A stretch of DNA of 64,000 bases from Psychroflexus aestuariivivens (GTDB lineage: Bacteria > Bacteroidota > Bacteroidia > Flavobacteriales > Flavobacteriaceae). The notes below the pieces were generated by a model, which ran no database searches, was not told where the DNA came from, and saw nothing but the letters and a program-made list of their open reading frames with translations. The DNA is taken from assembly GCF_004010055.1 (NCBI RefSeq), contig NZ_RQVT01000056.1, forward strand, positions 186,001 through 250,000, written 5' to 3'. The position numbers were made by a program, and so were the translations under genes. Of this stretch, positions 11,799 to 24,768 are shown piece after piece. The first letter of the stretch is position 1, and each line of letters starts with the position of its first letter.

Positions 11799-12290
11799 TT
11801 ATTTTTTCACATACCAAGTTGAAATCATTACCGTAACAACTGAAGCGGCAAAGGCTAATGTCATTAGAATTCCAGAAATCATGATGACGTATTTCATCCA
11901 TAATATTCCACTCCAAAGTAAATAAATTCCGCCAAAAGTGCCTAAAATAGAAACAAAAGGCTCAATCATTAGTATTTTTTTGAAACCTATTTTCAGATTT
12001 GTCATGGCGACTAAAACGCCAGTCAAGAGAAAAATCATTGCCATAGACAATATATGAGTATGAACAATGTTCAACATCTCTTGTTTTGATTTTTTAAATT
12101 TCATTTCTGTAGCATCTTCATCAGATTCATTGCCCAGATAATTTTCTTGAATACCAAATGGTGTCTGGGCTGTCGTGTGATCCACAAAACGAATTCCGGT
12201 AAAGTAGCCTATACTCAACACCAATAAAAATGCCGTCACCAAATATTTCAAATGAAGTGGCAAAGATTTTAAAGTTCCTGAAATTTGCAT
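11799..12290 (-). CDS. Four-helix membrane protein of the flavin/haem operon
   Basis: A 163-residue membrane protein with four hydrophobic segments (about residues 14-32, 76-95, 103-123 and 130-155). Between TM1 and TM2 is an acidic periplasmic or cytoplasmic loop (NESDEDATEMKFKKSK). Helix 2 starts with IVHTHILSM, two histidines spaced by one residue that could ligate haem, though a second axial partner is not evident. Its start overlaps the stop of the FMN-binding gene by one base, so the two are co-translated. I know no named family; a membrane electron-transfer partner of the FMN-binding protein is inferred. Confidence 0.7.
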   Translation of the reverse strand: MQISGTLKSLPLHLKYLVTAFLLVLSIGYFTGIRFVDHTTAQTPFGIQENYLGNESDEDATEMKFKKSKQEMLNIVHTHILSMAMIFLLTGVLVAMTNLKIGFKKILMIEPFVSILGTFGGIYLLWSGILWMKYVIMISGILMTLAFAASVVTVMISTWYVKK

Positions 12291-12826
12291 TAATCTGTAA
12301 TTTTAGATTTCAAAATAGCCATCTGTTTTAAGGATTTTTTGATGGCATCGGTCATGGCAGTTGCCGTAATTGTAGCGCCAGAAACTGCGGCAATATCTTC
12401 GCCGTATTCCAAATTATTTTCACTCTTTTTTCCATTGAACTGCTTCAACCAACGTTGCGACCCGACTTGACGACCGTATTTTTCTCTATAAATCAAAATT
12501 TTAGATTTTTTGATGCTAAAATCTGTATCATACATCACAACGTAATCAAAAACATCTTTTTTAGAATTGGCTTCAGAAAGATAAGCGTAACCCACAACTT
12601 TGTCGACATCCAAAATTTTATAAATATGAAGCTGATCGTATTTCGGATCAGCTTCAAGTTCTAAATCTGATTTTGAAATTTCTTGAAGTTCAAAGCTTTC
12701 GACTTCATAAGTTGAACTTACAGCGGCATCTAATTTTGCTTTCAATCTTGCCGGAATCTCTTGTAATACTGAACTCCATAAAGATAAAGTTAAAATAAAA
12801 ACTCCGAATACTTTCAAAATTTTCAT
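12290..12826 (-). CDS. Extracytosolic FMN-binding domain protein (covalent flavinylation motif)
   Basis: A 178-residue exported protein with an N-terminal hydrophobic anchor or signal (residues 1-22) and an FMN-binding domain like that of NqrC and RnfG. The C-terminal motif AAVSGATITATAM has SGAT at residues 149-152; in this family ApbE attaches FMN to the threonine (here Thr152) through a phosphoester. The middle shows GYAYLSEA and FDYVVMYDTDFSIKKSKILIY as in the fold. It is the second gene of an operon with a DUF6607-like protein and a four-helix membrane protein, divergent from a haem receptor. No ApbE is in this window. Confidence 0.88.
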   Translation of the reverse strand: MKILKVFGVFILTLSLWSSVLQEIPARLKAKLDAAVSSTYEVESFELQEISKSDLELEADPKYDQLHIYKILDVDKVVGYAYLSEANSKKDVFDYVVMYDTDFSIKKSKILIYREKYGRQVGSQRWLKQFNGKKSENNLEYGEDIAAVSGATITATAMTDAIKKSLKQMAILKSKITD

Positions 12827-12828
12827 AC

Positions 12829-13725
12829 TTAGCTTTTTACAATGAATTTTTCAATCGTGGCTCTAATGTCCTTTTTATTCGGTGCATTTTCTGGCGTCAA
12901 ATGCATAAAAAGCGGGCGACCTTCTACAGATTTTTTCAATTGTAATTCAGCATGTTCAGCATAAACTTCATCCCAAATTTTTCTAACTTTAGACCAGTAT
13001 TTCTGATTTTCTTTCCACCAATCTTGCGCTATTTTACATTTTTCATCATCAACTTTTTCATAAGTATTGTAGCCTTTTTCCATCACCAACAATTCTTCCT
13101 CACCATTGTCATGCTTAATGATTTTTTTGTTGTCTTGTTCATGAATCCAACCATTTTGAGTAATTTCCTGACGATTGCCGCGTTTCATCAAATTGTAATC
13201 ATCTCTTTTGGAATATTCACGCCTTGGTAAAGGTGAATTCGCTTCATCTTCCCAATAGTGTTTTCCATCGTAATGCACCCAAGTAGCTGTTCCTGAGTAT
13301 CTCGGACTGTCATCTACTTGGTAGACTTTTTGTGTCCATTGCCCGTCATCATTATTGTTTTCATTATAGAACTTCCAAGTATTGTCAGTTTTATAACTGA
13401 AAAGCTTATCGTTTTCAAATAACCAATCTTGTCGCCAGTGTTTGATGACCGTTGAATCGTTGATCACTAATAGATGCTGAATAGAAATATCATCTTTGCC
13501 TTCTTCTACAACTTCTGCCCATTCCAAAGCATAAGCTGTATAATCTAGTTTTTTCTCATAGTCGATTTCGGGAGAAAAAGTTTCGGTGTACTTGAAACTC
13601 ACTTCAAAACAACCACACATGGATTTGATGGCGTCTTTGTCCATTGCTTTTTTTGATTCTTGGGCTTGCATCGACAAGATTCCCATTAAAAATACTGCTG
13701 AAAGGCGTAAAATTTTGTTTACCAT
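12829..13725 (-). CDS. DUF6607-like exported protein
   Basis: A 298-residue exported protein with a signal peptide ending at about MQAQ (residue 22). The mature N terminus carries a CGC motif (Cys37, Cys39) in MCGCFEVSFKYTETFSP, followed by a beta-rich body heavy in Trp and Tyr (HWRQDWLFEND, GTATWVHYDGKHYWED). It ends with a segment EVYAEHAELQLKKSVEGRPLF. I recognise it as DUF6607-like from the CGCFEV start; this family has no established function. It leads the operon that contains the FMN-binding protein and faces the haem receptor over a 113-base gap, which suggests a periplasmic haem or iron role. Confidence 0.72.
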   Translation of the reverse strand: MVNKILRLSAVFLMGILSMQAQESKKAMDKDAIKSMCGCFEVSFKYTETFSPEIDYEKKLDYTAYALEWAEVVEEGKDDISIQHLLVINDSTVIKHWRQDWLFENDKLFSYKTDNTWKFYNENNNDDGQWTQKVYQVDDSPRYSGTATWVHYDGKHYWEDEANSPLPRREYSKRDDYNLMKRGNRQEITQNGWIHEQDNKKIIKHDNGEEELLVMEKGYNTYEKVDDEKCKIAQDWWKENQKYWSKVRKIWDEVYAEHAELQLKKSVEGRPLFMHLTPENAPNKKDIRATIEKFIVKS

Positions 13726-13756
13726 TTGATTAAAGTTTTATGTTAAAATTCTTCGA

Positions 13757-13764
13757 CAAAAATA
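13757..13764 (-). promoter_or_regulatory. Promoter -7 element for the DUF6607 operon (TATTTTTG)
   Basis: TAnnTTTG match 31 bases before the ATG. It faces the hmuR-like promoter, with a candidate operator between the two. Confidence 0.5.
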
Positions 13765-13773
13765 TGTAATTTT

Positions 13774-13792
13774 ATTTAGATTAGATAAAAAT
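13774..13792. promoter_or_regulatory. Candidate iron-regulator operator between divergent haem operons
   Basis: ATTTAGA-TTAGA-TAAAAAT, a 19-bp imperfect inverted repeat with 7-5-7 geometry (5 of 7 arm positions pair). It lies between the two divergent -7 elements, immediately upstream of each. Three similar boxes occur at 23539, 24787 and 60672. Confidence 0.4.
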
Positions 13793-13797
13793 AAACA

Positions 13798-13805
13798 TAT
13801 ATTTG
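13798..13805 (+). promoter_or_regulatory. Promoter -7 element for the haem receptor operon (TATATTTG)
   Basis: TAnnTTTG match 33 bases before the ATG at 13839. Confidence 0.58.
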
Positions 13806-13838
13806 CGCCATTATTTTTATTAAGACTTATTCTATATA

Positions 13839-15968
13839 ATGAAAAGATTAAGACTCATACTAGCGTTTATAGGTGTTCTGAATATTTCAGCCCAAGAAAA
13901 AGATTCATTGGACTTCAAATTTGGTGAAATAAATGGTCTTGAAGAAGTCGTCGTCACTGGACAAATCAACCCACAAAGTGTTAACAAATCGGTTTTTGAA
14001 GTCAAAGTAATTAACAGAGAAACCATTGATCGATTGGCAGCAAATAACCTAGCAGATATTCTAAACCAGCAATTGAATATCAATATTATTCCAAACGCTT
14101 CAACAGGAAAATCTGGTGTCCAGTTATTTGGTTTGGATTCTCAATATTTCAAAATTTTAGTAGATAATATTCCTCTAATTAGTGATGAAGGTTTGGGAAA
14201 TAATGCAGATTTAACGCAGATTAACCTCGATGATATTGAACGAATAGAAATTGTTGAAGGTTCTATGGGCGTTCAATATGGTGCGAATGCAGTGTCTGGA
14301 ATCATCAATATAATCACCAAAAAAGATGCCCAATCCGAATGGCAAATCACACCCTATGTTCAAGAAGAAACTATCGGAGACGAATATAATTTTGAAGATG
14401 AAGGCAGACATATTCAATCTGTAAAAGTTGCTCACAATATCAATGACAATTGGTTTGCACAAATCAGTGCAACACGAAATGACTTCAAAGGAAGATTTGG
14501 TGAAAAACAAGGTCAAAATTACCAGCAAAACGACGGTCTTCGCGGTTACGAATGGTTGCCGAAATTGCAAAACAACTACAAAGCCTTGGTTCGTTTCAAA
14601 AGTAAAAATACCACAGCTTTTTATAAGTTAGAGTGGTTTGATGAAAGGGTAAAACGCTATTCTGAAAGTGTGCGACTCAATGAAAATTCGTCTACAGGAA
14701 CTATAAATCCAACGGCAAGCGACGATATTTTCAAAAGTGGAAGAATGTTCCATCATTTCAACCTCAACACAAAACTTTTTGAAAAAACTAACTTGAATAT
14801 TTCAACTTCTTTTCAGGAACAAAAACGCGATGTGGAAGAATTCACCTATAGAATAAAAACTGGTGAAAAGCTGAACATTAGAAAAAATGAATTCGAATCT
14901 CGACAAGCCATATTTTCAAGAGGAAATTTGAGTAATTTATTGAATTTTGAAAAATTTGACTTGCAAGTCGGCTATGAGTTGAATCTTATCGATGGATTTG
15001 CATCGCCAATGTCGAATCCTTTGCAATCTGATCCAGTAGATAGAAAACTGAATAATTACGATGTGTTTGCGACTTCAAAATATCAGTTCTCCGATAAGTT
15101 TTCTATCAGACCAGGAGTCAGAGCTTTATTTTCAAATCAATTTGACCCGTTAATGGCAGTTTCGCTGAGTAGCAAATATTTATTCAATGATGGCGTAGAA
15201 GCCAGAGCTGTTGTAGGAAGTTCACCTCGAACGCCAAGCTACGACGAGCTTTTCACCTATTTCGTAGATGTGAATCACGATGTGCGAGGCAATGAAAATT
15301 TAAAACCAGAACAAGGATTTTCGACTTTTATACATTTCAAAAAAACATTTTGGTCAGACGATTATAAATTGAAAATTAAACCAAAACTCAGTTTTTGGTA
15401 TTTAAATGTCAGCGACAGAATAGAATTGACTATCGTGAATCCAAGCCCACTCGCCTATCAATTTTCAAATATTGACAAATTTCAATCGATTGGGACGTCA
15501 ATGACCACAAGTTTAGAATACAAAAATATCTCGGGAAATATTGGACTATCACTGACTGGAGTTTCAAAAGTTTTGGACAGCCAAGACAATTTTAATGATG
15601 ATTTCTTGTACGGTTTGCAAGCCAATTCCAATATCAGTTACAGAATTCCAAAATGGGGCTTGACAAGTTCTGTTTTTTTCAAATACAACGGGCCGCAATA
15701 TCAATTTGTTCAGCAGCAAAATGAAGCTGATGAAACGGTTCTAACACGCGGCAAACAAGACGGTTTTGGATTGATGGACGCCAGTTTCAGAAAACGCTTA
15801 ATTAAGAACAAACTTGACTTAACATTCGGCATCAGAAATGTACTCGATGTTGACCGGGTCAATACGACAGCGGTTGAAGGCGGTGCACACGATGCCGCGC
15901 CTTCCAGTTTACTCTTAGCTTACGGACGTTCTTATTTTATCAAACTTTTATATCAATTTAAATTTTAA
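13839..15968 (+). CDS. TonB-dependent outer-membrane receptor, HmuR-like (haem uptake)
   Basis: A 709-residue TonB-dependent receptor. A signal peptide ends at ISAQ (about residue 20). A TonB-box-like stretch LEEVVVTG and the plug domain (RIEIVEGSMGVQYGANAVSGIINIITKK) follow, then a 22-strand barrel ending in the aromatic terminus LLYQFKF. The downstream gene, 4 bases away, encodes a HmuY-like haem-binding lipoprotein, which makes haem the likely ligand. No carboxypeptidase-regulatory N-terminal domain is present, unlike the receptor at 18518. The haem-ligand histidines typical of HmuR/ShuA were not clearly located, so the substrate is inferred from context. Confidence 0.88.
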   Translation: MKRLRLILAFIGVLNISAQEKDSLDFKFGEINGLEEVVVTGQINPQSVNKSVFEVKVINRETIDRLAANNLADILNQQLNINIIPNASTGKSGVQLFGLDSQYFKILVDNIPLISDEGLGNNADLTQINLDDIERIEIVEGSMGVQYGANAVSGIINIITKKDAQSEWQITPYVQEETIGDEYNFEDEGRHIQSVKVAHNINDNWFAQISATRNDFKGRFGEKQGQNYQQNDGLRGYEWLPKLQNNYKALVRFKSKNTTAFYKLEWFDERVKRYSESVRLNENSSTGTINPTASDDIFKSGRMFHHFNLNTKLFEKTNLNISTSFQEQKRDVEEFTYRIKTGEKLNIRKNEFESRQAIFSRGNLSNLLNFEKFDLQVGYELNLIDGFASPMSNPLQSDPVDRKLNNYDVFATSKYQFSDKFSIRPGVRALFSNQFDPLMAVSLSSKYLFNDGVEARAVVGSSPRTPSYDELFTYFVDVNHDVRGNENLKPEQGFSTFIHFKKTFWSDDYKLKIKPKLSFWYLNVSDRIELTIVNPSPLAYQFSNIDKFQSIGTSMTTSLEYKNISGNIGLSLTGVSKVLDSQDNFNDDFLYGLQANSNISYRIPKWGLTSSVFFKYNGPQYQFVQQQNEADETVLTRGKQDGFGLMDASFRKRLIKNKLDLTFGIRNVLDVDRVNTTAVEGGAHDAAPSSLLLAYGRSYFIKLLYQFKF

Positions 15969-15972
15969 AACA

Positions 15973-17385
15973 ATGAAACACTTAAAAATTACCTTACAAA
16001 TTCTACTTTTAGTCCTATTCATCAGCTGTGATAGCGATGATGACAATCCTGCGCAAAGCGAAATGGTGGTCGCTTTTGAAAACGCTTCAACAAGCTTTTC
16101 AGCAGAAGATGACCGAAAAACCATCAATTTGGTGTTTTCTTCACCAGCCACAGAAAATGGAAGTTTGATCGTTGACTGGAATTCAACAAATTCAGTTTAC
16201 GGAGAAGATTTCACCGTAATTCCTGAAGCCACGAACAATAGTTTTACTTTGGAATTTAATGCTGGAGATGAAGGTGTAAGTTTCGACATTAATAAACTTC
16301 AAAACCCTATTGAAGGCACACAAAAATCGGTGAATTTTGATATTATAGAAGTCAATCATCGTAATGCAATTGTGGGTGGAAATACCAGTTTGAATGTGGA
16401 TTTCACCGGAGCTGCAGCTGCGAGCGGAAATATTTCACCTGAAGTTGGCGGTCCAAATCAACCTAACCAAGTTTATGTAGATTTGAGTGGGCAAAATTCT
16501 ACTGCAATCAATCGTGCAGCTTGGGATTTGGCATTTTATCAAGGCGAAGAATTTCGTGTAAAACTAAATGGCTCTTTATTTATGGCAACCGCAGAATTGG
16601 ATGAAACTGACATTACAGCAATAACTTCTCAAGATGTCGCATCGCTTCAAGGTCAAGTTGCGGTTGGCACTTTCAACCCAAGTAATATGGCTTATGTCGA
16701 TGCTCCAAGTGGCGAAATTAACGAAACTGCAATTGCTGAAATCGCTAACAATAATGAAGATAATAAAGTGTATTTGTTGAATCTTGGGAATTCTGTCGGC
16801 ACTGAAACACCACAGCCAGGAAGTGTTGAATTATCTGGAGAACCAAGAGGTTGGAAGAAAATTAGAATTTTGAAAGACGGTATTAATTACATCTTACAAC
16901 ACGCAGATTTAGACGCAACTGAATTTGAAGAAATTTCGATTTCAAAATCTGGAAATAATGCTTTTGAATATGTGAATTTAGCTTCAAATTCTACTGTGGA
17001 AGTTGACCAAAATATCCAGTGGGATATAGAATTCACGACATTCACCAACGAAATTGAAGGTGCTGGTTCTTACGGATATTCAGATTTTGTTGTGAACAAT
17101 AGATTGGCAAATGTGAGTGCTTATGCAGTTGAAAATTCAGAAATTGAATATGCGGATTATAATATTGAAGATGTTTCTGATGAAGAATTTTCTTTAGACC
17201 AAAGAGCAATCGGTAGTAATTGGAGAGTTGGCGGCGGTCCAAATTCTTCGCCAACATTGAAGCAAGAATTGTTTTTTGTGCTGAAAGACAGCGACGAAAA
17301 TATATACAAAATTAGATTTACAGCCTTGACCGATGAAAATGGTGTGCGCGGTTTCCCAAAATTTGAATATGAAAAACTGAATTAG
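15973..17385 (+). CDS. HmuY-family haem-binding lipoprotein
   Basis: A 470-residue lipoprotein: lipobox LFISC with Cys19 followed by an acidic SDDDD stretch that matches surface-exposed flavobacterial lipoproteins. Residues about 30-140 resemble a Calx-beta-like domain (DDRKTINLVFSSPATENGSLIVDW, YGEDF). From about residue 160 the HmuY signature appears: QVYVDLSGQ, WDLAFYQGEEFRVKLNGS and later a return to WDIEFTTFTNEI and the final YKIRFTALTDENGVRGFPKFEYE. HmuY proteins take haem from host or environmental proteins and pass it to HmuR. This one is about twice the length of Porphyromonas HmuY because of the extra domain. Ends at a strong terminator. Confidence 0.88.
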   Translation: MKHLKITLQILLLVLFISCDSDDDNPAQSEMVVAFENASTSFSAEDDRKTINLVFSSPATENGSLIVDWNSTNSVYGEDFTVIPEATNNSFTLEFNAGDEGVSFDINKLQNPIEGTQKSVNFDIIEVNHRNAIVGGNTSLNVDFTGAAAASGNISPEVGGPNQPNQVYVDLSGQNSTAINRAAWDLAFYQGEEFRVKLNGSLFMATAELDETDITAITSQDVASLQGQVAVGTFNPSNMAYVDAPSGEINETAIAEIANNNEDNKVYLLNLGNSVGTETPQPGSVELSGEPRGWKKIRILKDGINYILQHADLDATEFEEISISKSGNNAFEYVNLASNSTVEVDQNIQWDIEFTTFTNEIEGAGSYGYSDFVVNNRLANVSAYAVENSEIEYADYNIEDVSDEEFSLDQRAIGSNWRVGGGPNSSPTLKQELFFVLKDSDENIYKIRFTALTDENGVRGFPKFEYEKLN

Positions 17386-17451: not shown

Positions 17452-18186
17452 TTAATCAGAAATATTGAAGCTAATCGGTATGGCAAAAATCACACCTACG
17501 GCTTTCCCACGCTGTTTGCCAGGTTGCATTTTGGGTAATTTTTCAATCACACGCTGACTTTCTTCTTTTAGTTTGGGATGCGAAGCTCTGGCATTTAGGA
17601 ATTCTACTTCACCTTTATGATTTATTTTGAAAGTGGTATAAATTCTATTTTTGCCCTCTAATCCTAAATCTGAAGCCAATCTGGTGTCAAATTCTTTGTT
17701 GATAAACTTTTGAATTTGCTTATTCATACAGGCTTTGCGTTCATCGTTATTGCTAAGGTTTTCGCAACCTGGAAAGATTGGTACATCTTCTATCAATTCA
17801 AAAGACATTTCTGTGATGGGTTCATCTTCAGTTTTTTCTAAATCTTTAAAATCGATGATACCAGTCGATTCGAGTGGCTCTGGTTCAGTGTCTTCTAGTT
17901 TTGAATCTGGGTCTGTTTCGATTTTGTCATCAACAATTTCAAAATCATCGATTTTTGGCTGTGGTTTAGAAATTGGCTTCACTTTTTTTTCAGGTAATTT
18001 CACAATTGGTATTTCTTCTGTTTTCAATATTTGATAATCCACTTGATCATGATCTGTCATCGTTCGGGCTTCAGTTTTCCATTCTACTGAAATTAATACA
18101 AGTGATAATACGGCAATGAGTCCAATTTGAAAGAAGAATACTTTCTTTTTGTTCAGGTTTTTGTGGTCATATTTTTTAGGTTTCAT
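17452..18186 (-). CDS. tonB: Energy transducer TonB
   Basis: A 244-residue inner-membrane protein that couples the ExbBD proton motor to outer-membrane receptors. One membrane helix lies at about residues 16-33. A Pro/Lys and Glu/Asp-rich periplasmic spacer follows (VKLPEKKVKPISKPQPK). After a segment typical of Bacteroidota TonB (EDVPIFPGCENL.. ERKACMNKQIQKFI) comes the TonB C-terminal domain TTFKINHKGEVEFLNARASHPKLKEESQRVIEKLP. It lies tail-to-tail with the HmuY gene and near two receptors, so it may be devoted to these systems. No exbB or exbD is adjacent. Confidence 0.93.
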   Translation of the reverse strand: MKPKKYDHKNLNKKKVFFFQIGLIAVLSLVLISVEWKTEARTMTDHDQVDYQILKTEEIPIVKLPEKKVKPISKPQPKIDDFEIVDDKIETDPDSKLEDTEPEPLESTGIIDFKDLEKTEDEPITEMSFELIEDVPIFPGCENLSNNDERKACMNKQIQKFINKEFDTRLASDLGLEGKNRIYTTFKINHKGEVEFLNARASHPKLKEESQRVIEKLPKMQPGKQRGKAVGVIFAIPISFNISD

Positions 18187-18517: not shown

Positions 18518-20947
18518 TTAAAATTCTATAGCAAGAGTAGCATACCAATTCCTTGGCGCTGAAGGAATTATTCCTGGACCTGGATAACCAGTTGCTCTTC
18601 TCGTGAAATAGTTTTCATCTAGAAGGTTATTAATTCCTGTTTCAAGTTTGAAACTTTTGTATCTATAAGCTAAAGAAAAATCTAAAATGTCGTATTGAGG
18701 AATCTCTCCTACAATACCATTATTGGGAATTGCTCGAGAATTGTTTGCATCAGTAAATTGTTCTGAAAGGTAGGTGTATTGAAGGCTGGAAGAAAGATTC
18801 TTATAAGCAAATCTTATTCCTGTTTTCAAATTAAGATCAGGTATAAATTCTACTATATTTCCTTCAACTCCCTGTTGATCAGATCTTGTGTATTCTGAAT
18901 TTATTAGAGAAGTATTCACAAATAAGTTTAGACTATAAGCTGAATTTAATTTGAAAATTTTTTTAAAATTGAAATCAACTAAAGATTCCACACCATAAAT
19001 AATAGCGTCACCAACATTCGTCCGAAGAAGAATTGGACGATTATCGTCACGAACATCTTGAACTATTCCTATTCTGTCACGATAAGACAAAGCAAAAAGA
19101 CTGGCATCGTAAGAAATGTAATTATTAATTTTTCCTCGAAAACCAAAATCGGCAGTAAAGCCTTCCTCGTCTTTGATATCTTCATCTACTTCAAATGTTG
19201 GATTGGCGACATTAATATCTGAAAAAGTCACCGAGCGGTAATTTTCAGAAATATTTGCATAAAATTCAACAGCGTTAGTTGGCTTATAACTCATTCCTGC
19301 ACCTAACAAAACGAAAGAACGGTCAAGGCTTAATTGTTCTTCAACTATCTGCTCGTTTATAATATTGCCCGCTGCGTCAAAATTTAGTTCTGTAAAAACT
19401 GCGTCGCTCGCAGTTTTAATGTATTCAAAACGAAAACCTGGTGTAAAAGACAATTTATCTGTGATGTAAAAAATATTTTCACCAAAAATTGCCAAGTTGG
19501 TATTCGGCAAATCAGATATATATTGATTTGGATAACCTGGAAATTCTTCGTTCCTAAAACTAAAATCAGCATCGGAACCATCAGATCCAGGACCTTGTTG
19601 TTCTTGATTATCTGATTTATAAAATTTAGAACCAATCAAAAATGTAGCGTCTCTATCTAAAATCTTAAATTCATTGAGCAGTCTTACTTCAAAGCCGAAA
19701 TTACTAAAATCACTAACAATAAGATCTCGCTCCTCATTAGAGTCTAATTGGTCAACACGATTTGTTCTAAAACCAATAGCGCTACGTTTTGCCTGAAGCC
19801 CAAAAAAATTGAATGTAAAATTTGTCTGCTCAGAAAATTCATGCGAAAGTTTCAGGTTATACAAAAGCCAATCAACATCAAACCAATTCCGCTCTCGATT
19901 GCTCTGAAATGGGTCTTCAGCAAACATTTGGTCTGTTAATCCTCCTGCCTGTTGAGCTAAGTAATTCATATAAGTAACTTCAGCAGTTAGCTTAGTTTTT
20001 TCATTGAACTTATAGCCTAAATGTGAGAATATATTGATGGACTCATAGTCGGAGTTGGGTCTAAAACCATTTCCGCGTTTATAGTTCGTGTAGGCATAAT
20101 AGCTCAACTTACCTGAAGTCCCGCTTAAGCTTGTGAAATTTGTATATAAACCAAAACTACCTCCCGTATTTCTTGTAATGACATCCAAAGGTTGATTTGG
20201 ATTTGGTTCTTTCATAATGAAGTTTACCAGTCCGCCAAACTGAGTTCCATACTGCAAAGATGCGGCACCTCTTACTATTTGGATTTCTTTGAGACCTTCC
20301 GAAGCCGGCGTATAATAACTTTCTGGATATCCCAGTACATCCGCACTTATATCATAGCCATTCTGGCGTGTGTTGAAATTTGCTGTTCTATTCGGATTGA
20401 GACCTCTACCGCCTATATTTAGTTGTAAACCAGCGTCGTCATTTTGAAATATATTCAGCCCAGCGATCTGGCTATAGATTTGTCGAGCATTATTGGTTGC
20501 CAAATTGGCCATAGACTGATCGACCTGAATAACCTCTGTTTTTTTGCCTGCATAAATAGCTGTTCCTTCAACATCTTTTAGACGATTTAGCTCAAAAACC
20601 CTTTCTTTTTGAGCTATGATTTGAACTTCAGATAATTGTTCAGATAAAGCTTCAAGTGAAATATTTATATTTGATACTTCTTCTAGGTTAATTTGTTTTT
20701 CAAAGATTTGAAACTGAAATCCATAAAAGACTAAATCTATTTGTTTTTTTGAGGTTTTAAAGTTGAAATAACCCGAAGCATCAGTTTGTGCTAAAATACC
20801 ATAGTGTTTTTCGTATATATTAACTTCTTCTAATGGTTTTTGAGTGTCTTTATCATAAACATAACCCTCCAGTTGATAAGTTTGAGACCAACCCACAAGA
20901 GAAAATAAACATAAAACTAATATTTTACTAAAGTCCTTTGATGTCAT
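18518..20947 (-). CDS. TonB-dependent receptor, FecA-like, with N-terminal carboxypeptidase-regulatory-like domain
   Basis: An 809-residue outer-membrane receptor. The signal peptide ends at about GWSQ (residue 22). Residues 24-105 form the CarboxypepD_reg-like domain (LEGYVYDKDTQKPLEEVNIYEKHYG). The plug includes IGGRGLNPNRTANFNTRQNGYDIS and EIQIVRGAASLQYGTQFGGLVNFIMKEP, characteristic of Fe(III)-dicitrate/siderophore receptors. The barrel ends in YATLAIEF. Its first 20 bases overlap the end of the HTTM gene, so it is the last cistron of the DUF4856-imelysin-HTTM operon. A siderophore or iron-chelate substrate is inferred from family and neighbours. Confidence 0.9.
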   Translation of the reverse strand: MTSKDFSKILVLCLFSLVGWSQTYQLEGYVYDKDTQKPLEEVNIYEKHYGILAQTDASGYFNFKTSKKQIDLVFYGFQFQIFEKQINLEEVSNINISLEALSEQLSEVQIIAQKERVFELNRLKDVEGTAIYAGKKTEVIQVDQSMANLATNNARQIYSQIAGLNIFQNDDAGLQLNIGGRGLNPNRTANFNTRQNGYDISADVLGYPESYYTPASEGLKEIQIVRGAASLQYGTQFGGLVNFIMKEPNPNQPLDVITRNTGGSFGLYTNFTSLSGTSGKLSYYAYTNYKRGNGFRPNSDYESINIFSHLGYKFNEKTKLTAEVTYMNYLAQQAGGLTDQMFAEDPFQSNRERNWFDVDWLLYNLKLSHEFSEQTNFTFNFFGLQAKRSAIGFRTNRVDQLDSNEERDLIVSDFSNFGFEVRLLNEFKILDRDATFLIGSKFYKSDNQEQQGPGSDGSDADFSFRNEEFPGYPNQYISDLPNTNLAIFGENIFYITDKLSFTPGFRFEYIKTASDAVFTELNFDAAGNIINEQIVEEQLSLDRSFVLLGAGMSYKPTNAVEFYANISENYRSVTFSDINVANPTFEVDEDIKDEEGFTADFGFRGKINNYISYDASLFALSYRDRIGIVQDVRDDNRPILLRTNVGDAIIYGVESLVDFNFKKIFKLNSAYSLNLFVNTSLINSEYTRSDQQGVEGNIVEFIPDLNLKTGIRFAYKNLSSSLQYTYLSEQFTDANNSRAIPNNGIVGEIPQYDILDFSLAYRYKSFKLETGINNLLDENYFTRRATGYPGPGIIPSAPRNWYATLAIEF

Positions 20948-22292
20948 CTTTAAATGGTAAAATCCAAGTTTTTGACTTGAATGATTCGTATTGTTTTAAT
21001 AAATCTACACCTGGATCGATGTAAGGTTGACTTCTTCTCCCGTTGAGTGCTACATAACTTTCTACATAAATTTCAATAGGTTGATGACCTTGAGATTTGA
21101 AGTGATCACCGAGATAATGAGCATATTCCAAAATAAAATCAGGCTGAGTACTCATTTGTTTTTCCTGAAAAGAAGAAAGGAAATCTGAATTATCTACATA
21201 GAAATAGGTTTCCTTTTCTGGGTTAACAACTTTAAAGTTTGCGTATCCACGCTTTTCCATTAACATGACACGCCAAGAAAAGCGATAACCTTCCTCCCTC
21301 CAAAATAACTCACTAGGATATAAAACATATCTAAAAGGCAAGATAATCTGAATAACAAAAAATATTACCAAAACCAAAATTACTGGTTTTTGCCTCGATT
21401 TTAAGTAAGCTTCGGTTTTTACACCTTTAGGTTCTATATTGAATAATTGAAGCATTTTTTTTATAAAATTGATAATTTTATGATGAACTTCAGCATCAAA
21501 AAATATCAAACTTCCAATAATCATAATATAGGGAAACATGCCTATAGGAAAGAGAACTCTTGTAAAAATGTGAAAAAACACCACTAAAATAAAGGCAAAA
21601 ATTCGTGTTCTTTTATACAAGAGCAAAAAAGGAATCATTAAATCATACAACATTCCAGACCAGCTCATAACATAGTGAAACCATTCTTGATGCATTAAGT
21701 TCCCGCCAATGAGAGGTAAATCATATTTAGAAGGCAACCATATTTTCAAAGGCATTGCTTTGAATAACCAGTCACTGTTGAGTTTTGCCAAACCCGCATA
21801 AAAATAAACAATGGCAAGCATTAGTTTAATCGTATCTATGGTCCATTTTGGAATGAGGGCGTATTGCTTTTTTCTTATGATATTATCTATAGAATAAAAA
21901 GCATTGGCAGGTAGAAATATCATCAAAAAACTAACTAAACTGATAAAGTAGTAGTGATTGAGATAAGTGGTTTTATCCATGAATTCTATATAGGTAAAAC
22001 TCAAAAAGAATAAGACAATTGATAATCTATACTTTAGCCCAAGTGCTACAAACAAAGCAGAAATCCCGCAAATGATAAATATAAGATAAGTCCAATCTCC
22101 AAGAGGTTTCACCCATTCAAAACCATAGTATGAAAAATGAAATTTTGGATTCAGATAGAGCTTTTCAATCCAACCATAGCTCCAAAACCGAATAATACTG
22201 ATAAACATCATCAACCCAAAGCCTATTCTAAACACTGCCAGTGGTGCGGCTGAGACTTGTTTATGTAAGTAGGATTTAAAATGATTTAACAT
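20928..22292 (-). CDS. HTTM domain membrane protein (vitamin K-dependent carboxylase-like)
   Basis: A 454-residue polytopic membrane protein of the HTTM family, named for homology to the horizontally transferred transmembrane domain of vitamin K-dependent gamma-carboxylase. Its N terminus, AAPLAVFRIGFGLMMFISIIRFW, is typical, followed by about eight hydrophobic segments and motifs KTTYLNHYYFISLVSFLM and IKLMLAIVYFYAGLAKLNSDWL that are conserved in the family. The C-terminal 110 residues are soluble (RYVLYPSELFWREEGYRFSWRVML, then VESYVALNGRRSQPYIDPGVD). It overlaps the receptor gene and follows the imelysin gene. In bacteria the biochemical function is unknown; association with imelysin and a TonB receptor suggests iron handling. 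Confidence 0.85.
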   Translation of the reverse strand: MLNHFKSYLHKQVSAAPLAVFRIGFGLMMFISIIRFWSYGWIEKLYLNPKFHFSYYGFEWVKPLGDWTYLIFIICGISALFVALGLKYRLSIVLFFLSFTYIEFMDKTTYLNHYYFISLVSFLMIFLPANAFYSIDNIIRKKQYALIPKWTIDTIKLMLAIVYFYAGLAKLNSDWLFKAMPLKIWLPSKYDLPLIGGNLMHQEWFHYVMSWSGMLYDLMIPFLLLYKRTRIFAFILVVFFHIFTRVLFPIGMFPYIMIIGSLIFFDAEVHHKIINFIKKMLQLFNIEPKGVKTEAYLKSRQKPVILVLVIFFVIQIILPFRYVLYPSELFWREEGYRFSWRVMLMEKRGYANFKVVNPEKETYFYVDNSDFLSSFQEKQMSTQPDFILEYAHYLGDHFKSQGHQPIEIYVESYVALNGRRSQPYIDPGVDLLKQYESFKSKTWILPFKDDIKGL

Positions 22293-22301
22293 AAGAATAG
22301 A

Positions 22302-22330
22302 AAGGGATTTTCAAATTCTGAAAATCCCTT
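22302..22330. terminator. Hairpin between imelysin and HTTM genes
   Basis: AAGGGATTTTCA pairs perfectly with TGAAAATCCCTT across 5 bases. The T-run is better on the + strand than on the - strand, where the genes lie, so it may act as partial attenuator or mRNA end rather than a full terminator. Confidence 0.5.
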
Positions 22331-22360
22331 ATTTTTAATAATAATTTTACTTAGAATATA

Positions 22361-23485
22361 TTAATCTCCATCAGCATCAACATAATCTACACTTATATCC
22401 AAAGCCTGTAGCATATCAACTTTCAAAAAAACAACTCCAAGTTGGATAATGTCGAAAGTTTCGGTCATTGCCACACTGTTGTTTTCAACTTGTTCTGCAA
22501 AACTATCGTTCAGCGTATTAATCTTATTTTCTGCTGCAACAAATTGGTTATTGATCAGCGTGCTAAGATCTTCACCATCTTTAATGGTATTGAGAAAATC
22601 GAGATAGTCATCAAGACTTCTCCCTTCATTACCTCCAACATAAGCACGACCATTAAAAAAGTTTTTTATTGCATCAACAGCTTCAAGTGCTAATGTTTTG
22701 GAAAAATCACCGGCATAAAAAGCTTCTACTCGATCTGGTAAAGGATTTGGTGAAAAATTACCAGCTGGTATTCCAAACTTATTAGCTCTAAATCCCTTTT
22801 CATAGTAAAAGATAAAATCATTAACTACTAAATTGATTGATCCAGTTGCAGAATTGTCTGTATTATTTACAAAACTATCTCGGTAAGCATTTTTCCAATC
22901 GTCAAGTATAGCTTGGGTTAAGCTTTCCATCCTGTCTGTAAGATCAGATAAATAGGTTTTATAATTGTTAGAATCAGCTGAAGTTGAGTAGAATTCTAGA
23001 ATTTCAACATCAGAATCTCCTAAGCCATAAAGCATATAATCTAAAGCTGGAAAACCGACAGCATCATTATTATTGACGCTCGCTAAATCATAATTTTGAT
23101 TATCGATGTTTTGCTGAATATCTACAGTATTAGTTGGATACACATTCATCTGAAAGATATAATTTGTGTTTTCAGCTATCCCCACATTAAACATTTCTGC
23201 ATGCTGCCAAACTTTGTAAGCTTCTTTCCAGGAAGTTCTCATATTTTCAAGATTAGAAGTATTTGGTTCTGCAATAAAAATATTTTTTTGAGCAACCATT
23301 GCTTCTAGCTTTGTATCTAAATCTTCATAAACTGGAATGATGATATTATTAGCCCAATTGCTTAACATAGCTGAGCGATCGAAACCATCATTGACTGAGT
23401 TCCCAGAATCATTATCATCTGAACTACAAGCGACTATCATCATAACAGAAGCTAAAGTAAAAAGACCTAAAATGATTTTCTTCAT
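22361..23485 (-). CDS. Imelysin family lipoprotein
   Basis: A 374-residue lipoprotein: signal MKKIILGLFTLAS and lipobox IVAC give Cys20, then SSDDNDSGN. The imelysin (M75/IrpA/EfeO-like) domain shows NMRTSWKEAYKVWQHAEMF, the core motif VGFPALDYMLYGLGD, and FRANKFGIPAGNF. Imelysins are iron-regulated proteins, some binding iron in the periplasm; peptidase activity is not well supported. I chose the ATG at 23485: the frame can be extended to a TTG at 23506, but that TTG lies within a -7 promoter element (23504-23511). ATGs at 23494 and 23488 are also possible. Confidence 0.9.
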   Translation of the reverse strand: MKKIILGLFTLASVMMIVACSSDDNDSGNSVNDGFDRSAMLSNWANNIIIPVYEDLDTKLEAMVAQKNIFIAEPNTSNLENMRTSWKEAYKVWQHAEMFNVGIAENTNYIFQMNVYPTNTVDIQQNIDNQNYDLASVNNNDAVGFPALDYMLYGLGDSDVEILEFYSTSADSNNYKTYLSDLTDRMESLTQAILDDWKNAYRDSFVNNTDNSATGSINLVVNDFIFYYEKGFRANKFGIPAGNFSPNPLPDRVEAFYAGDFSKTLALEAVDAIKNFFNGRAYVGGNEGRSLDDYLDFLNTIKDGEDLSTLINNQFVAAENKINTLNDSFAEQVENNSVAMTETFDIIQLGVVFLKVDMLQALDISVDYVDADGD

Positions 23486-23503
23486 CATGTTCATTTTTTT
23501 TTG

Positions 23504-23511
23504 CAAATATA
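23504..23511 (-). promoter_or_regulatory. Promoter -7 element for the imelysin gene (TATATTTG)
   Basis: TAnnTTTG match directly upstream of the ATG cluster. It overlaps a misleading TTG codon and would give a very short leader. The 19-bp box at 23539 covers its -33 region. Confidence 0.5.
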
Positions 23512-23538
23512 AAAAGTAAGAAAGCTTTTTGGTACTTA

Positions 23539-23557
23539 ATTTAGTCTTAAACTAATT
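23539..23557. promoter_or_regulatory. Candidate iron-regulator operator upstream of imelysin
   Basis: ATTTAGT-CTTAA-ACTAATT, 19 bp, 7-5-7, arms matching at 6 of 7 positions; a longer TAATTTAG / CTAAATTA repeat also spans it. Located 28 bases upstream of the -7 element. Confidence 0.4.
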
Positions 23558-23562
23558 CTAAA

Positions 23563-24768
23563 TTAGCTTCCAGCTTGTTCTAAAGTAAAATTAAATCTGG
23601 CAGCTATTTGGCTAGCAAGTTCTTCTAATGTTTCTTCAGAAACATCCCAGAATCCATTACCTTCAAGTAAAGTATCTAGCATAGCATCAACTTCAGCTTT
23701 AGAAAAATAAGGCGCTTCAGTATCGTTATTTCTGGTAAATTGTAGACTGTAAATAAAACCAATTCCTTCGGACAAATCGTGAAATGCTGCACCTTTATCA
23801 TTAGCAATTACATTTTTTCCTTGTTCTAAATAATAAACAGCTCTGATGCCAATTATTTCAGAAACTCTCTCTTTTATAATTTCAGCTTGTTGATCTCTTA
23901 AACTATAATCTTTCGCAACTATTGCAGCACGACCTAATTTGAAAGCATTATAAATTTCATCTGCAATACCCTCAAAATCTGAATCATTTTCTACACGAGC
24001 TAAATACTTGTTCAAAAAGCTATCTTGACCAAGTTCTGGATTCAACTGATTATCTGTACCATATAAATAACCAAATGCCTCGTCCCATTTGTGTTCCATG
24101 GTAGTGTAATTTTTACCATCTTCTGTAATGTCATTATTATTGTTTTCAACATTATTAGCTTCATCTAATACAGAAACACTTAAATAATTATTGAGCATTT
24201 GATCTGTCATTACAGCGCCTATAAGAGACTTTAGCACCGCCTGATTATATTCAAGACCTTTAGCATTCACATATCGTACGCTTCCACCTCCTGCTTCTTG
24301 AATTTGACCAGCTTGACCAGGAGCAGCTGTCGTATTCCAATTTGGAAAAACTTCTATTACTTGCGCACTAATCCAATTATCAAATTGATTTTTGATTGCT
24401 TGTGCATCTGTAGTATTTGCAGAAAAATAATCTCTAGATGCTGCGGTTTTACTTCTTAAACTTTTATCAGATGCATTTAGGTCTGCATCAGAAAAATCAT
24501 TATCACCTTCTTGGTGCGCATACATAGATAATAAGTCAGTTTCTGTTTTGCTTGTGTTTTTCAATGCATCATCGAGCTCATTTCCCATCATAATTCTGGT
24601 CGTCTGACCTGAATAACTTACGGTTGAATTACCATCACGCTCAAAGCTATAAGTTTGTGGTGCTTCAACTTCTGGGGTAATAATTGCATTATCATCATCG
24701 TCACTACAAGAAGTCAAAAGCAATGCTACAGTAAAAAATAAGCTTAAAAATAAATTTGATTTTTTCAT
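23563..24768 (-). CDS. DUF4856 lipoprotein (imelysin-related)
   Basis: A 401-residue lipoprotein: signal MKKSNLFLSLFF, lipobox LLTSC with Cys21, then SDDDD, the acidic run common in surface lipoproteins of this group. The family features are YSFERDGNSTVSYSGQTTRI near residue 42, HKWDEAFGYLYG in the middle and AAFHDLSEGIGFIYSLQFTRN toward the end, as in DUF4856 proteins. The alpha-helical layout resembles imelysin, with the WDEAFGYLYG segment in the place of the imelysin core. It is first in an operon-like run with imelysin, HTTM and a receptor, and carries a good promoter with a candidate iron operator. Function not established. Confidence 0.88.
   Translation of the reverse strand: MKKSNLFLSLFFTVALLLTSCSDDDDNAIITPEVEAPQTYSFERDGNSTVSYSGQTTRIMMGNELDDALKNTSKTETDLLSMYAHQEGDNDFSDADLNASDKSLRSKTAASRDYFSANTTDAQAIKNQFDNWISAQVIEVFPNWNTTAAPGQAGQIQEAGGGSVRYVNAKGLEYNQAVLKSLIGAVMTDQMLNNYLSVSVLDEANNVENNNNDITEDGKNYTTMEHKWDEAFGYLYGTDNQLNPELGQDSFLNKYLARVENDSDFEGIADEIYNAFKLGRAAIVAKDYSLRDQQAEIIKERVSEIIGIRAVYYLEQGKNVIANDKGAAFHDLSEGIGFIYSLQFTRNNDTEAPYFSKAEVDAMLDTLLEGNGFWDVSEETLEELASQIAARFNFTLEQAGS

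Follow-up and report, generated by a model that had tools for sequence, protein, structure and literature searches.

A stretch of 64,000 nucleotides from Psychroflexus aestuariivivens (contig NZ_RQVT01000056.1, positions 186,001 to 250,000 of the forward strand; hereafter the window) was found to carry, at positions 11799–17385, a haem uptake locus of the already known RhuH type, to which a gene for a flavin mononucleotide (FMN)-binding protein, FMNb, and a gene for an undescribed four-helix membrane protein, TM4, have been added. On balance, we lean towards the reading that the added genes provide a lineage-specific, ApbE-dependent flavin relay serving haem or iron uptake. This reading is carried by the layout of the locus, the fold and haem-binding residues of the haemophore, the flavinylation motif together with ApbE, the linkage of FMNb with TM4, and their joint retention in related genomes. 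All five open reading frames named in an earlier reading made from the letters alone (the sequence-only reading) are present, and the parts of the locus are arranged as follows:

11799–12290, minus strand: TM4, open reading frame for a membrane protein of 163 amino acids with four predicted helices, the proposed membrane electron donor of FMNb
12054–12062, minus strand: codons of TM4 His77-Thr78-His79
12290–12826, minus strand: FMNb, an FMN_bind protein of 178 amino acids (PF04205; export judged by eye)
12371–12382, minus strand: codons of the SGAT flavinylation motif of FMNb, Ser149–Thr152
12829–13725, minus strand: DUF6607 protein, RhuH-type haemophore by its modelled fold, 298 amino acids (PF20311; N-terminus signal-peptide-like by eye)
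13438–13440, minus strand: codon of DUF6607 His96, equivalent of the RhuH haem ligand His96
13774–13792, no strand assigned: Fur-box-like 19-mer within the shared divergent promoter (likeness to the consensus counted by hand)
13839–15968, plus strand: HmuR/RhuR-like TonB-dependent receptor, 709 amino acids (open reading frame with profile matches)
15973–17385, plus strand: HmuY-family protein, 470 amino acids (PF14064; start lipoprotein-like by eye; HmuY domain towards the C-terminus)

The minus-strand row is compact, with 2 bases between the DUF6607 and FMNb genes and a one-base overlap between FMNb and TM4, and 113 bases separate this row from the divergent plus-strand genes of the receptor and the HmuY-family protein.

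The DUF6607 protein matched PF20311 of Pfam with 352.6 bits (cut-off 27). Its AlphaFold model, computed from 37 input sequences with a predicted local distance difference test (pLDDT) of 87.4, found PDB entry 8XJC with a Foldseek E of 1.5e-28 at 47% identity, and VIA-align superposed 269 residues with a Z of 32.2 and a root-mean-square deviation of 2.2, while the sequence alone reached an E of 4.6e-82. The folds that came after 8XJC in this search were barrels with Z of 8 to 11, including nitrobindins. According to the parts of the source paper drawn on here (PMC11967795), 8XJC is RhuH, a haemophore of Riemerella anatipestifer, which binds haem with a dissociation constant of 3.44e-11 M through the ligand His96; the constants are about 2e-5 M for haem with the H96A variant and 2.7e-5 M for iron-free porphyrin with RhuH, and an AlphaFold3 model has the propionates held by Arg143, Tyr144, Arg170, Arg183, and Gln198. 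For RhuH, the same source reports that haem is bound with high affinity and that haemoglobin supports growth, and three homologues are claimed to be functionally conserved. Residues H96, R142, Y143, R169, R182, and Q197 of the window protein correspond to His96, Arg143, Tyr144, Arg170, Arg183, and Gln198 of RhuH, and each of the six was kept in 80/80 full-length DUF6607 sequences, the 81st row being cut by a contig end. By its modelled fold the window protein is a RhuH-type haemophore, and haem binding is predicted for it. The sequence-only reading knew of no defined function for DUF6607, which is superseded by the publication of RhuH as a haemophore (PMC11967795, as above); a protein with this role is therefore unlikely to be an electron carrier. 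In the literature searched, with most subscription journals out of reach, no paper on DUF6607 by name was found.

The same reading had pointed to a CGC motif in the DUF6607 protein. It is present at residues 37–39, but it is neither conserved nor indispensable, as the first cysteine is absent in 11/81 DUF6607 sequences and the second in 6/81. We rejected it as an electron or metal motif, since it occurs in 42/43 DUF6607 proteins linked to FMNb and also in 28/38 without FMNb, and RhuH has AGC at the same place. Both CGC cysteines are absent from the copies at two loci (L077 and L078) that have no receptor within four genes of DUF6607, and at L077 the gene adjoins a protein resembling, by eye, a heavy-metal-associated domain. 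A small DUF6686-type protein of about 117 amino acids recurs behind DUF6607 or FMNb (L034, L098, and two gene clusters), with a Pfam match that is strong in L098 and below the cut-off in L034.

The receptor possesses TonB plug and barrel domains by Pfam. Its naming as HmuR-like could be kept in part: against the curated haem-receptor model TIGR01785 it scored 88.2 bits over residues 34–707, below the cut-off of 316.85, so 'haem-like' is as far as the profile goes, and against BtuB it scored 90.7 bits, below the cut-off of 836. We assign it a haem role because of its neighbours and the layout of the RhuR locus. The HmuY-family protein matched PF14064 with 97.3 bits (cut-off 27), and no relative was found for it in the PDB at an E of 0.01. 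The loci compared comprise 45 from close relatives, 35 from a wider sample, and the window, 81 in all; the 45 were found by peptide patterns from the window protein, which biases them towards close relatives, and the labels receptor, HmuY, and porin stand for profiles or clusters built in this analysis, which may include other proteins. In 75/81 loci a related receptor was found at most four genes away from DUF6607, and 69/81 have both receptor and HmuY; this neighbourhood is beyond chance. Of the proposed five-gene neighbourhood, the receptor, HmuY, and DUF6607 genes stay together in 69 of the 81 loci, but FMNb is patchy and TM4 is present in 14/81. Among 395 sampled Bacteroidota genomes, DUF6607 was found in 36. 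An alphaproteobacterial Sphingomonas plasmid has DUF6607 behind a receptor whose annotation gives the haemoglobin/transferrin/lactoferrin type, and the stretch concerned gave no FMNb match. For haem degradation, the genome was searched for CobN (PF02514), Heme_oxygenase (PF01126), and HemS (PF05171), and these three families gave no match.

In R. anatipestifer, rhuH is transcribed divergently from rhuR-rhuA, and the bidirectional promoter between them contains a Fur box (PMC11967795, parts consulted), given in a passage of the source as ATTTAGAATTATCCTAAAT. The haemophore fold, its residues, and this divergent layout recur in the window, in agreement with the earlier assignment as a haem uptake locus. 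By hand count, the copy in the window agrees with the R. anatipestifer consensus at 14/19 positions in one orientation and 13/19 in the other. A Fur-box-like motif was detected in 55 of the 60 intergenic regions between divergent genes, where shuffled sequences would give 0.25; of 63 divergent loci, two whose genes lie over 300 bases from each other and one containing masked bases were excluded. The excess is descriptive, because the pattern was composed after some of the tested loci had been viewed and the loci are related. The site in the window is a candidate Fur box, and FMNb and TM4, packed closely behind the DUF6607 gene, would come under its control as well.

FMNb matched PF04205 (FMN_bind) with 33.0 bits (cut-off 22). 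The SGAT motif with Thr152 that had been predicted occupies residues 149–152, Thr152 being the motif threonine; GAT, including Thr152, is found in 36/36 aligned FMNb sequences and Ser149 in 92%. FMNb is accordingly annotated here as a predicted flavinylated protein, with covalent FMN on Thr152 inferred from the motif. FMN_bind proteins flavinylated by ApbE carry extracytosolic electrons, and some of their gene clusters co-localise with iron transport (passages of PMC8238504 and PMC10979944). For TM4, helices were predicted at residues 12–41, 69–95, 101–126, and 132–159 (model pLDDT 77.6), and the expected His-Thr-His at 77–79 falls inside the second helix. Both His77 and His79 are kept in all 50 aligned rows, which represent 48 distinct sequences since the window and L084 were each entered twice, and the predicted helices also contain a Pro without variation and a Glu conserved at 98%. 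This pattern of conserved His, Pro, and Glu suggests a cofactor or quinol site. In Pfam, TM4 matched no family at an E of 0.01, hence neither PepSY_TM (PF03929) nor PF14358 or PF01794 of the DUF4405/MsrQ-like membrane cytochromes, and at an E of 1 it matched LysE only, below the cut-off. It went unnamed above cut-off by Pfam and NCBIfam for the window protein and the copy in L142, and by NCBIfam alone for that in L157.

The FMNb-TM4 pair is a separate module, found mostly without DUF6607 and beside a porin-like gene. In a Bacteroidota sample of 390 genomes, not identical to the 395 used for DUF6607, TM4 was found in 36 genomes. FMNb was found in 51 at an E of 0.001 or below, including all 36 with TM4, and at an E of 1e-12 or below in 37 genomes, 36 of which have TM4. 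FMNb lies directly upstream of TM4 in 36/36 loci examined (the window, L084, and 34 others), which upholds the four-helix protein as the partner of FMNb. A porin-like outer-membrane gene precedes the pair in 31/34 of the other loci, a name based on weak Pfam hits (in two examples to Porin_4, below cut-off; in one to OMP_b-brl, above it) and on the appearance of the sequence. The earlier reading had reckoned with an FMN-binding gene that belongs to a different pathway: this is what the wider, porin-linked family shows, but not the haem-locus branch. Co-occurrence with ApbE, which that reading had proposed to check, was seen in the window genome and in 41/41 other TM4-positive genomes tested; the gene was also present in 7/14 control genomes, ApbE being common. 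In 14/35 TM4 genomes of the phylum, the sole ApbE gene is no more than 3 kb away from the pair (positions compared by eye). The window genome has a single ApbE gene, outside the haem locus, near a gene that we recognised by eye and take to be nqrF. Just one other FMN_bind match was found in this genome, about 3.3 kb before ApbE on the same contig; it is presumably NqrC, likewise recognised by eye. On a betaproteobacterial plasmid of Ideonella dechloratans (L209, 2460–6847), genes for a di-haem peroxidase, a porin-like protein, an FMN_bind protein, and ApbE stand in a row. The small membrane protein of this cassette, encoded at the place in which a TM4 gene would be looked for, was rejected as TM4, to which it has no homology; it is weakly DUF4405-like (E 0.0067, below cut-off). 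A search of a plasmid collection with the window TM4 found none.

At the haemophore loci, FMNb was found in 41/45 of the close-relative loci, and in 43/43 haem loci having FMNb it follows the haemophore gene directly on the same strand. A tree of 70 FMNb sequences from a quick maximum-likelihood search, including 27 of the 43 from haem loci, placed these 27 on one side of one branch (Shimodaira–Hasegawa-like approximate likelihood ratio test 93, not starred) and grouped them with 13 flavobacterial porin-side sequences (99); of the 43 rows labelled porin, 3 had no porin-like gene in view. Because the haem-locus sequences lie on one side of one branch, FMNb was likely recruited once to the haemophore locus. 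In the TM4 tree, obtained by a quick search, the haem-locus copies formed one group less clearly, with 2 changes, 1 of them forced. The haemophore loci of a further Bacteroidota family (f29) have a flavodoxin in 3/3 cases and a PepSY_TM protein in 2/3. With FMNb-TM4 here and flavodoxin/PepSY_TM there, redox genes seem to have joined the RhuH-type haem locus at least twice. The f29 loci (L082, L085, and L086) contain a receptor, a small protein that looks membrane-bound by eye, an HmuY-type protein, DUF6607, and flavodoxin, with PepSY_TM in L082 and L085.

The joint retention of TM4 and FMNb was examined in 20 genomes, which we picked from those of the 45 close-relative loci and all of which have a haemophore locus without TM4. 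The results showed that 18 carry both TM4 and FMNb and 2 carry neither. Two FMNb genes occur in 11/20, and a porin-FMNb-TM4 set lies away from the haem locus in all 8 two-FMNb genomes whose TM4 region was fetched; one genome (G410) has the porin-FMNb-TM4 set alone. Six genomes (G396, G397, G399, G400, G402, and G404) have FMNb at the haem locus only and keep TM4 elsewhere. In the five regions fetched (all but G399), this orphan TM4 stands beside a gene for 490 amino acids, recognised by eye, with neither a porin-like gene nor FMNb, and the five sites are of the same kind. Three label changes were needed to account for these five orphans on the TM4 tree, and starred branches forced one of the three. 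A search for the porin gave no match in the window genome, G158, G396, G400, G402, and G404; G397 yielded a 27% match and G399 a weak one, whereas the matches in four controls had 65–80% identity. Since porin and FMNb were lost and TM4 was kept, TM4 is best explained as working with the haem-locus FMNb, and the two probably work together. Possibly, TM4 was instead kept for a second partner other than this FMNb.

In the mechanism that we propose, the haemophore, the divergent TonB receptor, and HmuY would capture haem under the control of one Fur-type promoter. TM4, situated in the inner membrane and using His77/His79 and Glu110, would receive electrons from a donor, quinol by our guess, in the membrane or the cytosol. 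The single ApbE of the genome would attach FMN to Thr152 of exported FMNb, and TM4 would pass its electrons to this FMN. The reduced flavin would then act on the ferric iron of haem held by RhuH or HmuY or free in the periplasm, or on iron released from haem, and reduced haem iron might let go of its His ligand or enter ferrous-iron import. The covalent FMN, the direction of the electrons, their donor, and haem or iron as their acceptor are what we infer here. As the affinity of RhuH rests on iron coordination, reduction of the iron is a plausible release switch. The specific step in which covalent-flavin FMNb, fed by TM4, reduces ferric haem bound to His96, so that haem or iron is freed from the haemophore or a partner outside the cytoplasm, is put forward tentatively, as a possibility short of probable. 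For the release of haem or iron by very tight haem carriers in Bacteroidota, a flavin relay directly behind the gene of a high-affinity haemophore would be a candidate redox switch. If true, this would be a haemophore uptake system that unloads haem by reduction, with an undescribed family of four-helix electron carriers. The locus also exposes TM4 as a conserved membrane family with an invariant His-x-His, whose constant neighbour is a likely ApbE substrate.

Several observations, however, weigh against the proposed relay. In the wider sample, FMNb was present at 1/35 haemophore loci with the window excluded (34/35 without), and of the 43 haem loci with FMNb, a total that counts the window and L084, only 14 have TM4 behind it; in 6 of these 14, the two genes are separated by 306 to 405 bases. 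Within the window's own genus, the genome G355 carries DUF6607 and neither FMNb of this kind nor TM4, and another genus (g2), with 15 DUF6607 genomes, has no genome among the 51 with FMNb matches. In many genomes DUF6607 is accompanied by receptor and HmuY while the pair is absent, and the relay is therefore unneeded for haem capture. Genome-wide co-occurrence of DUF6607 and TM4 was rejected as support, since two genomes (G000 and G158) are shared between 36 positives each, which does not exceed chance. TM4 belongs to no recognised cytochrome or quinone-site family, and its model found nothing below an E of 1.8 with Foldseek and a best Z of 7.5 with VIA-align, the chance level for helical bundles, so electron transfer by TM4 stays a proposal. 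Moreover, RhuH is reportedly released in outer-membrane vesicles (PMC11967795, parts consulted), and contact between the haemophore and the relay is thus not a given; a protein exported in vesicles, as RhuH is, may well pass through the periplasm beforehand.

These points leave room for other explanations of the pair. The relay might reduce ferric iron in the periplasm generally, from siderophores or free, standing behind rhuH only for the sake of an iron-regulated operon and never touching haem. Orphan TM4 genes behind a DUF4856-imelysin-HTTM-FecA operon at two loci (L197 and L206; 27 bases from the receptor stop in L197) fit this view, though they also count towards an iron link in the favoured reading, and an operon of the same type adjoins the haem locus of the window; the literature consulted further connects PepSY-like flavinylation clusters with the reduction of iron and siderophores. 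The position of FMNb directly behind the haemophore gene in every haem locus having it argues for a closer tie, and we regard general ferric-iron reduction as doubtful. Alternatively, the pair may keep a porin-linked role, such as passing electrons to an outer-membrane or extracellular acceptor, after passive relocation to the haem locus. The porin-like gene in 31 of 34 wider loci, the plasmid row of L209, and the chance-level co-occurrence of DUF6607 with TM4 across the phylum would agree with such a role. Nevertheless, the eight genomes with haem-locus FMNb and TM4 have no porin match (six) or the 27% and weak matches described above, and two FMNb genes are kept in 11 of the 20 chosen genomes, as expected from diverged roles; passive relocation thus seems quite improbable.

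It is also conceivable that TM4 is a membrane anchor or assembly factor of FMNb and that the electrons come from elsewhere, for example from NQR. The only ApbE gene seems to be in an NQR operon, near the gene recognised by eye as nqrF, and TM4 is without a recognised redox family. The two invariant His residues, the invariant Pro, and the 98% conserved Glu within the helices suggest a cofactor or quinol site instead, and other flavinylation clusters include a membrane cytochrome, according to the published passages used, which makes a purely structural TM4 unlikely in our view.

Beyond the locus, a gene for a protein with a TonB C-terminal domain (17452–18186, minus strand) directly follows the HmuY gene and may energise the receptors. 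Next to the haem locus, at 18518–24768 on the minus strand, genes for a FecA-type receptor, an HTTM protein, an imelysin (M75), and a DUF4856 protein stand in a row, and the HTTM protein carries a vitamin K-dependent carboxylase lumenal domain.

Compared with known systems, the window locus is closest in its core to rhuH/rhuR-rhuA of R. anatipestifer, with which it shares the haemophore fold, the haem-binding residues, the divergent receptor operon, and a shared promoter region bearing a Fur-box-like site. FMNb and TM4 come in addition in the window, whereas the legend of Figure 1a of the RhuH paper names rhuH, rhuR, and rhuA only, and a word search of its main text gave no 'FMN' (PMC11967795). 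No report pairing HmuY/HmuR or haem uptake with FMN binding was found in the literature searched, under the limits of access given above. With the flavinylation systems of Meheust et al. (2021), the locus has in common the FMN_bind SGAT motif, ApbE, a membrane partner, and iron-linked clusters; in contrast, TM4 fits none of their membrane classes by Pfam, the passages concerned describe no haemophore locus, and the word 'porin' is absent from the main text (PMC8238504; word search). FoxB and PepSY-like reductases, as far as the sources consulted describe them, are alike in tying a membrane electron donor to iron uptake through TonB receptors, but TM4 has no PepSY_TM match, and a separate protein with covalent flavin would carry its electrons onwards. 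The HmuY-HmuR system of Porphyromonas gingivalis shares the pairing of an HmuY-family protein with a TonB receptor. HmuS of that system is a CobN-type protein; the window genome is without one and has, instead, a RhuH-type haemophore and the proposed flavin relay.

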